Assembly (NCBI RefSeq): GCF_002355535.1
Contig: NZ_AP017457.1
Span: forward strand, 496,001-560,000
Direction: 5' to 3'
Source: Aurantimicrobium minutum
GTDB taxonomy: Bacteria; Actinomycetota; Actinomycetes; Actinomycetales; Microbacteriaceae
Length of the DNA: 64,000 nucleotides
Below the pieces are notes generated by a model. The model was not told the origin of the DNA. It did no database searches and was given only the letters and a program-made list of their open reading frames with translations. The position numbers and the translations under genes were made by a program. Shown one piece after another: positions 25,357-28,131 of the stretch (position 1 is the first letter of the stretch; each line of letters begins with the position of its first letter).

Positions 25357-25401
25357 AATCTGTTTGAAACACAACCTCGTTATTTGTAACACTTACGTCA
25401 C
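25357..25401 (+). promoter_or_regulatory. Candidate nitrogen-control region ahead of the first amt gene
   Basis: AATCTGTTTGAAACACAA (25357-25374) recurs, with two changes, ahead of the second amt gene (26815-26832). Downstream, GTAAC-N6-GTCAC (25386-25401) resembles GlnR half-sites with the 11-base period of the actinobacterial GlnR box. Binding by GlnR or AmtR is inference. Confidence 0.45.
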
Positions 25402-25489
25402 CTCGTAGAACACCCCCGGTAACGAACTTCATTCACACTCATGAATAGAGACGGTGAACTATCCGTCACCATTCGTGAAAGAGGTTGAA

Positions 25490-26746
25490 ATGGATCAAGG
25501 CAACACCGCCTTCGTGCTCATCAGCGCAGCACTGGTGCTCCTGATGACTCCCGCCCTGGCGTTCTTCTATGGCGGTCTCGTCAAAGCTAAGAGTGTCGTC
25601 AGCATGATGATGTTGAGCTTTGGCTCTCTTGCGCTCATTGGTGTCTTGTGGGTTATCTACGGATACTCCATCGCATTCGCCAATGAAGGCTCATCGACGT
25701 TTTATGGCATAGACGGAATCATTGGTATCGATACCGCATACATCGGTCTTGAAGGCTTACTAGAAACTCCCGAGGGCGCAGCATTCCCACCCTTGGCCTT
25801 CGCAGCATTCCAAGCCACTTTTGCAATCATCACTGTTGCTCTGATTAGCGGTTCAATCGCCGACAGAGCAAAGTTTGGCGCTTGGCTTGTATTCGCAGGT
25901 ATTTGGGCAACAATTGTGTACTTCCCAGTAGCTTCCTGGGTATTCAACTTCACCATCGTGGACGGCAAGATTGTTGACGGTGGTTGGATCGCCTACAACC
26001 TGGGCGCAATTGACTTTGCAGGTGGCACGGCTGTCCACATCAACGCGGGTGCAGCAGCTCTTGCATTGGCACTTGTCTTGGGCAAGAGGATTGGTTTTGC
26101 AAAGGGTGTTGCAAAGCCTCACAACGTGCCACTGGTTCTTCTCGGTGCAGGATTGCTCTGGTTTGGCTGGTTTGGCTTCAATGCAGGATCGGAACTTGCA
26201 GCGGACGGGGTTGCTTCCCTGGCATTCATCAACACGATTGCTGCACCAGCGGCAGCTGTATTGGGATGGTTGCTTATTGAGCGCATCAAGGAGGGTAAGG
26301 CCACTTCAGTGGGAGCTGCCTCGGGCGCAGTTGCTGGTTTGGTTGCGATCACACCTGCATGTGCAAACCTGACACCAATGTGGGCAATTCTGTTGGGCCT
26401 CATCGCTGGTGCTGTCTGTGCACTTGCCATTGAGCTCAAATTCACTTTCGGGTTTGATGACTCTCTGGATGTAGTGGGTATTCACCTTGTGGGTGGTTTG
26501 ATCGGAACCTTGTTCCTTGGGTTCTTCGCAACCGAAGTTGGATTCTTCTTCTCTGGTTCATTTGAACAACTCGGAAAGCAGGCTATTGCTGCCTTTACCG
26601 TACTGGTCTTCTCGTTCGTTCTCAGTTACATCATTGGAACAATCATTGAGAAGACCATGGGGTTCCGTATCAAGAATGAGGACGAGCTCGCTGGTATCGA
26701 CACAATTGTCCACGGCGAAGAGGGATATGCGCTTCAGGAGGCATAA
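25490..26746 (+). CDS. amt: Ammonium transporter (Amt), twin-His type
   Basis: An 11-helix Amt/Rh channel that imports ammonium. The 418-residue protein has AIDFAGGTAVHINAG with Asp175 and the first pore histidine His183, and VVGIHLVGGLIG with the second pore histidine His332, plus GWFGFNAGS. ATG 25490 follows AGAGG and fits the family N-terminus MDxGNTAF; an in-frame upstream start at 25454 adds 12 unsupported residues. A closely similar copy lies 137 bases downstream. No PII (glnK) gene is adjacent. Confidence 0.95.
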   Translation: MDQGNTAFVLISAALVLLMTPALAFFYGGLVKAKSVVSMMMLSFGSLALIGVLWVIYGYSIAFANEGSSTFYGIDGIIGIDTAYIGLEGLLETPEGAAFPPLAFAAFQATFAIITVALISGSIADRAKFGAWLVFAGIWATIVYFPVASWVFNFTIVDGKIVDGGWIAYNLGAIDFAGGTAVHINAGAAALALALVLGKRIGFAKGVAKPHNVPLVLLGAGLLWFGWFGFNAGSELAADGVASLAFINTIAAPAAAVLGWLLIERIKEGKATSVGAASGAVAGLVAITPACANLTPMWAILLGLIAGAVCALAIELKFTFGFDDSLDVVGIHLVGGLIGTLFLGFFATEVGFFFSGSFEQLGKQAIAAFTVLVFSFVLSYIIGTIIEKTMGFRIKNEDELAGIDTIVHGEEGYALQEA

Positions 26747-26774
26747 ACCTTGAATTAGTTCCATCACTCCTCAT

Positions 26775-26808
26775 GTCTAGGCCCTGTAGTTTTTCACAGG
26801 GCCTAGAC
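26775..26808 (+). terminator. Strong hairpin between the two amt genes
   Basis: GTCTAGGCCCTGT (26775-26787) pairs perfectly with ACAGGGCCTAGAC (26796-26808) around an eight-base loop. There is no T-run after it, so it may terminate weakly or protect the mRNA end. Confidence 0.6.
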
Positions 26809-26814
26809 ACGATT

Positions 26815-26832
26815 AATCTGTTCGAAACATAA
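26815..26832 (+). promoter_or_regulatory. Shared amt upstream element, second copy
   Basis: AATCTGTTCGAAACATAA matches the element ahead of the first amt gene at 16 of 18 bases. A second GAAAC lies exactly 22 bases after the first (26824 and 26846), i.e. two turns of 11, as in GlnR-type boxes. Confidence 0.45.
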
Positions 26833-26883
26833 ACGCTTCATATCTGAAACGCGTATGCCAAAGAATCTCCTCTGGAGGTTCTC

Positions 26884-28131
26884 ATGGATACAGGTAATAC
26901 CGCTTTTCTGATTATTTGCACCGCGCTGGTGTTGATGATGACACCAGCTCTGGCTTTCTTCTACGGCGGTCTTGTCCGTGCCAAGAGCGTCATCAGCATG
27001 ATGATGCTCAGTTTTGGCTCCATGGCTATTGTCGGCGTTTTGTGGATTATCTATGGCTACGCCATCGCATTCCCAGCTCTGGGTGGCCCTGCAACGTACG
27101 GAATCCCCGGTGTATTCAACATCGACTTAGCTCACATGGGATTAGAAAATCTCATTGAAGTTCCAGACGGGGCAACTGTTCCTCCTCTCGTTTTTGCCGC
27201 TTTCCAAGCTACGTTCGCGATGATTACTGTTGCGCTCATTTCAGGAGCAATCGCTGACCGTGCAAAGTTTGGTGCATGGATGGTGTTTGCAGGCGTGTGG
27301 GCAACCATTGTCTACTTCCCAGTAGCCTCCTGGATCTTTAATTTCACTGTTGAAGACGGTGAAATTACCAGTGGCGGATGGTTGGTCTACAACGTGGGTG
27401 CACTTGACTTCGCGGGTGGAACAGCTGTTGAAATCAACTCTGGTGCAGCTGCGCTGGCACTTGCTTTAGTTCTTGGAAAACGAATTGGTTTCGCCAAGGG
27501 AGTTCATAAGCCCCACAACGTACCATTCGTTCTCTTGGGCGCAGGATTGCTGTGGTTTGGCTGGTTTGGTTTCAATGCTGGTTCTGCAATTGCCGCAGAT
27601 GGTGTTGCTGCCATTGCCCTGATTAACACCATGGCAGCAGGTGCTGCCGGAATTATCGGATGGCTTATTGTCGAACGTATTAAGGATGGCAAGGCAACCT
27701 CCGTCGGTGCCGCCTCAGGTGCCGTTGCGGGTCTTGTTGCGATTACACCCTCGTGTGCTTACCTCACCCCAAGCTGGGCTCTCGTTCTCGGTATTCTCAC
27801 CGGTGTCTTGTGTGCACTTGCGGTTGAGCTCAAATTCACTTTTGGCTTTGATGACTCTCTGGATGTTGTGGGAATTCACCTCGTTGGTGGGTTGATTGGA
27901 ACATTGTTCCTTGGCTTCTTTGCTACTGAAGTTGGACTCATTTACTCGGGTTCATTTGATCAACTCGGGAAGCAAGCCATCGCAGCATTTAGCGTTCTGA
28001 TCTATTCCTTCACTCTCTCGTTTGCAATTGGTTGGGTAATTGACAAGACAATGGGATTCCGTGTCAAGAATGAAGATGAGCTTGCTGGTATTGACCTCGT
28101 CATGCACGGTGAAGAGAGTTACGACTACTAA
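26884..28131 (+). CDS. amt: Ammonium transporter (Amt) paralogue with Glu in place of the first pore histidine
   Basis: A 415-residue paralogue of the preceding transporter; the two align without gaps through at least residue 340. The pore motif reads ALDFAGGTAVEINSG, so the first twin-His residue (183) is glutamate (codon GAA, 27430-27432), while His332 and Asp175 are kept. TGGAGG lies a few bases before the ATG. The separate promoter-like region and the strong hairpin between the copies suggest independent transcription. In fungal Mep1/Mep3-type proteins the same His-to-Glu change alters transport properties. Confidence 0.94.
   Translation: MDTGNTAFLIICTALVLMMTPALAFFYGGLVRAKSVISMMMLSFGSMAIVGVLWIIYGYAIAFPALGGPATYGIPGVFNIDLAHMGLENLIEVPDGATVPPLVFAAFQATFAMITVALISGAIADRAKFGAWMVFAGVWATIVYFPVASWIFNFTVEDGEITSGGWLVYNVGALDFAGGTAVEINSGAAALALALVLGKRIGFAKGVHKPHNVPFVLLGAGLLWFGWFGFNAGSAIAADGVAAIALINTMAAGAAGIIGWLIVERIKDGKATSVGAASGAVAGLVAITPSCAYLTPSWALVLGILTGVLCALAVELKFTFGFDDSLDVVGIHLVGGLIGTLFLGFFATEVGLIYSGSFDQLGKQAIAAFSVLIYSFTLSFAIGWVIDKTMGFRVKNEDELAGIDLVMHGEESYDY

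Follow-up and report, generated by a model that had tools for sequence, protein, structure and literature searches.

Two adjacent genes of Aurantimicrobium minutum encode ammonium transporters (Amt) that differ at the first twin-histidine place of the pore, where the first protein has the usual histidine and the second has glutamate. The same change has taken place repeatedly in bacteria, mostly together with a second change three residues further on, and the resulting Glu form is generally accompanied by an ordinary His form. We consider it probable that a second class of Amt has arisen repeatedly in bacteria in this way, by the same two-residue switch in a duplicate kept beside the His form, and that this class is the counterpart of the fungal Mep2/Mep1 split. 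For the second A. minutum gene itself, we favor with somewhat less assurance the reading that it is a functional, specialized Amt, which would have arisen by duplication and the two-residue switch and would form with its neighbor a Mep2/Mep1-like pair with the kinetic roles proposed below. What the pore histidines do, and why Glu is found instead in some transporters, is a standing question for Amt/Mep/Rh proteins, and the function of the Glu form is called unclear in PMC3647058.

The tandem pair and its conservation in Aurantimicrobium

A. minutum KNC-T is a freshwater ultramicrobacterium of the Microbacteriaceae (PMC4929513) whose genome is a single contig of 1,622,386 bases. We analyzed a stretch of 64,000 nucleotides from it (the window), which holds the tandem pair; a family search of the genome found no further Amt genes. 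The genes and the codons discussed below are as follows.

25490..26746, + strand: His-form Amt gene (PF00909, TIGR00836, pairwise alignment)
26036..26038, + strand: His183 codon CAC of the His form, at the place of AmtB His168
26045..26047, + strand: Ala186 codon GCG of the His form, position from the pairwise alignment
26884..28131, + strand: Glu-form Amt gene (PF00909, TIGR00836, conserved in 8/8 genomes of the genus)
27430..27432, + strand: Glu183 codon GAA of the Glu form, at the place of AmtB His168
27439..27441, + strand: Ser186 codon TCT of the Glu form, three positions after Glu183
27877..27879, + strand: His332 codon CAC of the Glu form, kept, at the place of AmtB His318

The open frame of the His form begins with a GTG at 25454, and its likely start is MDQGN at 25490. 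Both proteins score above the curated cut-offs of PF00909 (His form, 381.6 bits; Glu form, 374.9 bits; cut-off 23.2) and TIGR00836 (419.4 and 417 bits; cut-off 343.3), and by its full-length matches to the two models the Glu form is a member of the Amt family. A preliminary description of this DNA had reported tandem Amt paralogues with a gap-free core, one with His183/His332 and the other with Glu183/His332, and both the alignment and the codons bear this out. The proteins are identical at 319/415 aligned positions (76.9%), with no gap up to the last few residues, and both carry His (CAC) at residue 332. In the alignment with AmtB, Glu183 falls at residue 168 and His332 at His318; the closest PDB chain to the Glu form, 2NOW, itself has Glu at the place of AmtB residue 168. 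The Glu form lacks a twin-His pore, its first His being Glu and its second His being kept, and a change from CAC to GAA requires two base changes. Because the Amt family also includes established Glu members such as Mep1, Glu183 marks a variant rather than an outsider. The places of the Phe gate and of Asp160 are kept in both window proteins (F111 and D175), as is the stretch WFGWFGFNAGS, which is identical in the two.

The preliminary description had allowed that a Glu form missing from relatives would be a sequencing error or a decaying copy. Instead, the Glu form is conserved throughout the genus and in 22 further genomes of the family. All eight genomes of the genus have His183 in the first gene and Glu183 in the second, and Glu183, Ser186, and His332 are invariant in the eight Glu genes while their codons vary (GAA in five and GAG in three for Glu183; TCT in five, TCA in two, and TCC in one for Ser186). 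Since every genome of the genus retains Glu183 and its codon varies only synonymously, the residue cannot be put down to error or decay. The median dN/dS is ∼0.026 for the Glu gene (23/28 genome pairs usable) and 0.020 for the His gene (28/28), ratios that are rough because dS is near saturation. Together, the alignment, the conservation, the codon variation, and the low dN/dS rule out both of these explanations. The Glu gene evolves faster than the His gene, with a median identity within the genus of 0.923 versus 0.968.

Repeated change at residues 183 and 186

After residue 183 itself, the alignment column that differs most between Glu and His forms is 186. We compared 378 different sequences, each with at least 370 amino acids matched, His at 332, and either Glu or His at 183; others were left out. 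Residue 186 is Ser or Cys in 122/134 Glu forms (Ser in 106, Cys in 16) and Ala in the other 12, while among the 244 His forms it is Ser in 30, Ala in 161, Gly in 52, and Leu in 1. The coupling between the two residues is thus strong but not absolute, given the Glu forms with Ala186 and the His forms with Ser186. The 16 Glu forms with Cys at the companion place (L082, L083, L085, L090, L091, L101, L102, L105, L116, L127, L135, L148, L152, L157, L159, and L163) include many from Acetobacterales and Acidimicrobiaceae. The PDB alignments brought up only Escherichia coli AmtB entries and Archaeoglobus Amt-1, the latter with His at the first pore place and Ser at the companion place.

A tree of the 378 sequences, built with columns 183 and 186 removed, has 18 changes of state, at least 14 of them on supported branches. 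Across 14 independent pairs taken from it, residue 186 differed in the same direction in 9.6 on average, in the opposite direction in 0, and not at all in 4.3 (median p 0.002). A previous tree, with 233 rows, has 10 changes, and its 9 pairs gave 6.8 differences the same way versus 0.4 (median p 0.031, with some pairings non-significant). A careful tree of 80 rows chosen out of these 233 needs 7 changes, which is also the 5 to 95% range of 200 bootstraps, and its pairs split 7:0 (p 0.016). What the trees alone give is repeated change and not its direction; the family Glu clades are nested in a wider His background, and on this arrangement the Glu forms of the family would descend from local His forms.

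The preliminary description had proposed a phylogeny of the Glu form in Microbacteriaceae as a check, and the 80-row tree has four separate Glu clades in the family, with genus labels g1+g13+g39+g47+g83, g11+g14, g67, and g54. Each clade adjoins His genes of its own genera, with the exception of G229 (g54, lineage IV), whose His gene falls elsewhere in the tree, away from the clade of its Glu gene. A single Glu clade in Microbacteriaceae, uniting the 22 family Glu rows, is ruled out (p-AU 5.8e-49). Columns 183 and 186 are the only ones that swap completely across all four lineages, from His+Ala to Glu+Ser; the next column scores 0.5. The His-to-Glu change had been recognized in the preliminary description, whereas its coupling to the Ala186-to-Ser change and the commonness of Glu forms in bacteria lay outside its view.

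We were concerned that these clades might only seem independent. If a single ancient His/Glu pair had been homogenized within each lineage by gene conversion everywhere except at codons 183 to 186, it could give this picture; tandem paralogues would be prone to such conversion, and an AU test that uses the remainder of the gene would not be sufficient alone to exclude it. We looked for a conversion tract in 20-residue windows and in flanking nucleotide identity, and saw none. The windows, taken without columns 183 and 186, showed no local excess of Glu–Glu likeness. Nucleotide identity between lineages was 0.688 for Glu–Glu versus 0.711 for Glu–His comparisons in codons 178 to 182, 0.512 versus 0.662 in codons 184 and 185, and only slightly higher for Glu–Glu in codons 187 to 196 (0.693 versus 0.686). 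Identity between Glu genes is therefore lower immediately ahead of codon 183 and at codons 184 and 185, and barely higher beyond codon 186, which argues against one shared converted segment. Moreover, the Glu and His genes of lineage I form separate clades over five genera, so conversion has not been frequent in that lineage. On balance, we regard conversion of an ancient pair as quite improbable, and repeated switching in separate lineages remains our preferred account of the four clades.

Distribution of the Glu form and its coexistence with a His form

Within Microbacteriaceae, 398 genomes were searched, of which 371 have Amt; 57 were picked for small size or two copies, and loci were read from these and some others, making the family loci a non-random sample. 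His-then-Glu tandem pairs occur outside Aurantimicrobium in 22 genomes of eight genera (g11, g13, g14, g39, g47, g54, g67, and g83). The His gene lies upstream on the same strand in all 54 loci holding both genes (30 genomes, many read twice). Other genomes of those genera have the His form only (for example G252, G289, G348, and G373 of g11), and from these close relatives it follows that the Glu form is dispensable.

Some Microbacteriaceae have, beside the His-form Amt, a diverged Amt-like gene that is 23 to 37% identical to the His form (L022, L024, L027, L032, L043, L044, L045, L230, L233, L235, L236, L237, L239, L240-L243, and L250). The first pore His is absent in 14 of the 18 examined and the place of Phe107 is never Phe (0/18), while the place of Asp160 is Asp in 18/18; the gene may encode a sensor or a relative that does not transport. 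One genome also holds, away from its intact His-form gene, a short piece of Amt interrupted by three stops (G208:C1:377527-377721), perhaps a relic.

A DNA pattern scan of 84,980 species genomes returned at least 117 stretches, and all 117 among the matches listed hold a Glu form, which rules out confinement to Aurantimicrobium. The taxa among these listed matches include Nanopelagicales, Acidimicrobiia, Mycobacteriales, Kitasatosporales, Acetobacterales, and Clostridia. The pattern demanded Asn at 185, which is absent from all six Glu forms of the phylum sample described below, and the scan therefore undercounts Glu forms. The Glu forms in records titled Bifidobacterium breve and Streptomyces griseus (L054, L058, and L096) cluster with those of freshwater Nanopelagicales; the genome of L054 is 1.3 Mb, and the three record titles look wrong. 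Two Kitasatosporales genomes (G422 and G423; L129, L130, and L317) have two different Glu forms and one His form.

In PMC3647058 and PMC7048316 the naturally occurring Glu variant is presented as a fungal trait, that of Mep1/3, and the accessible text of a review of the prokaryotic proteins (PMC10433425) mentions no Glu form. The wide occurrence of Glu forms in bacteria is new relative to these descriptions. Our literature search found no report of natural bacterial Glu forms; it covered subscription papers sparsely and is not proof of novelty.

To follow coexistence, 35 genomes were hand-picked from the 117 listed stretches and all Amt genes were sought in each. A His form is also present in 33 of them; the remaining two (L126 and L159), whose records bear the title uncultured, show one Amt only. 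As an unbiased counterpart, we sampled 108 genomes of the phylum that are at least 95% complete, one of which is A. minutum itself. Without it, Amt is found in 90 genomes, with one match in 63 and two or more in 27. Every readable single-Amt genome has His (62/62, with Glu in 0/62), the 63rd match being a short fragment with a stop. Glu occurs in 6 of the 27 multi-Amt genomes, several of which hold fragments that are unreadable at the site, and each of the six has a His form alongside and Ser186 in the Glu form (Fisher p 0.0005 for 0/62 versus 6/27 with our own genome excluded; 7/28 if it is included). At the level of genes, 113 of 116 readings in this sample are His/His or Glu/His and the other three have His with residue 332 not covered, so residue 183 has no third state there. 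The division of labor that the preliminary description had put forward draws support both from this coexistence and from the repeated origin.

Proposed roles of the two forms and their control

The closest known parallel is fungal. Fungi have Mep1/Mep3 beside Mep2, with Glu at the first twin-His place of one paralogue and His in the other within one cell; the preliminary description had drawn this comparison, correctly (PMC9040831 and PMC7048316), and the Glu form has the Mep1/Mep3-like Glu at that place. Unlike the fungal proteins, the window proteins are of bacterial Amt type, with separate bacterial origins and a companion Ala-to-Ser change; the i+3 place is absent from the list of places separating Mep1-like from Mep2-like proteins in the accessible text of PMC7048316. 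The Glu that adjoins the second His in Mep1 is also missing here, where both proteins read GIHLVGG.

In oocytes, transport by yeast Mep1 (Glu) is electrogenic and that by Mep2 (His) electroneutral; Mep2 H194E has a higher Vmax and a shifted pH optimum, but its instability precluded an interpretable current in oocytes, and Mep1 with its His restored is inactive (PMC7048316). Escherichia coli AmtB H168E (PDB 2NOW by sequence) has the same residue at the same place as the Glu form, and showed currents of 22.28 versus 3.38 nA, a Km of 12.87 versus 0.8 mM, and no K+ current; in yeast it supported poor growth on 1 mM ammonium, which the authors ascribed to toxic influx (PMC9040831). By analogy with this AmtB and yeast Mep work, the A. 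minutum pair would operate like the fungal Mep2 (His)/Mep1 (Glu) pair. The difference in affinity or pH range that the preliminary description had suggested for the two proteins would likewise rest on this work with other proteins. The His form would most likely be the higher-affinity scavenger, and the Glu form, as a tandem duplicate with the coupled switch of His183 to Glu and Ala186 to Ser, most likely an ammonium importer that carries charge, with higher flux, lower affinity, and another pH optimum. A Km like that of AmtB H168E (∼13 mM) seems poor for an oligotroph, which counts against this kinetic reading; however, AmtB H168E is a laboratory mutant with one substitution and has Ala at the companion place, where Ser or Cys is usual in natural Glu forms, so the mutant's low affinity may exaggerate the gap.

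The coupling points to residue 186 as the first candidate for a residue that accommodates the Glu. Ser186, which presumably sits one helical turn from Glu183 (i+3), probably helps accommodate the acidic side chain or an adjacent water. If bacteria have indeed made a second Amt class by this switch, Ser186 would count among the unnamed residues through which the pore accepts Glu, other residues having been suggested to accommodate it in Mep1 (PMC7048316). Dictyostelium discoideum AmtA, although eukaryotic, resembles the Glu form in that Glu is implied at the 183 place; Glu by itself is reported to be insufficient to make methylamine toxic (PMC10100761), in keeping with a requirement for companion residues.

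Two yeast observations lend something to the alternative that the Glu form, instead of importing ammonium, serves chiefly in sensing, as an export valve, or in the transport of another amine, namely that residue 183 separates signaling from non-signaling Mep proteins (PMC7048316) and that Glu affects methylamine toxicity (PMC10100761). We think this unlikely: the yeast Glu protein is the non-signaling transporter (PMC7048316), AmtB and Mep2 single Glu mutants still move ammonium (PMC9040831 and PMC7048316), and the ammonium transporter models match both window genes equally well. Near-neutral drift in a redundant copy whose role is unchanged would be in keeping with the faster change of the Glu gene and with first-His single mutants that keep growth on ammonium (PMC3647058). 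It would have to produce, however, invariant Glu183 and Ser186 in all eight genomes of the genus and the identical two-residue combination in four lineages, at a cost of two base changes per His-to-Glu step and with no third state at residue 183 in the phylum sample, and we give it very little chance of being right. The repeated swap, usually with the companion serine and beside an ordinary copy, rather suggests two working modes of one transporter. The recurrences of the swap in bacteria, many of them beside an unswitched sister gene, are natural experiments that provide matched pairs for testing the role of the Glu, and gene inactivation has been published for the congener A. photophilum (PMC11577799).

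The DNA around the two genes carries candidate control elements.

25386..25411, + strand: GlnR-like blocks GTAAC-n6-GTCAC-n6-GAAC, upstream of the His form
26774..26809, no strand assigned: strong hairpin between the genes, present in 8/8 genomes of the genus
26824..26850, + strand: GlnR-like blocks GAAAC-n6-GCTTC-n6-GAAAC, upstream of the Glu form

The hairpin is perhaps a terminator; judged by eye, its sequence changes among the eight genomes preserve pairing. The upstream blocks, five-base blocks at six-base spacing, fit what we take to be the GlnR consensus. As the search patterns were written after the sites had been seen, these putative GlnR sites are suggestive only, and both genes may be under GlnR control. 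The genome encodes a GlnR-type regulator (L451; PF21695, 146.4 bits, cut-off 27). PII protein (PF00543) was found in none of the eight genomes of the genus, all of which have two Amt genes, while a control search was positive in 13/14 known genomes; by this result the pair would lie outside the GlnK-AmtB regulated systems, and blocking of Amt by GlnK, the usual arrangement, is not expected. A similar GlnR-like site lies upstream of one glutamine-synthetase-type gene (L458), and five proteins with a glutamine synthetase catalytic domain (G000:C1: L458-L461 and 1616872-1617840) are encoded in this 1.6 Mb genome.
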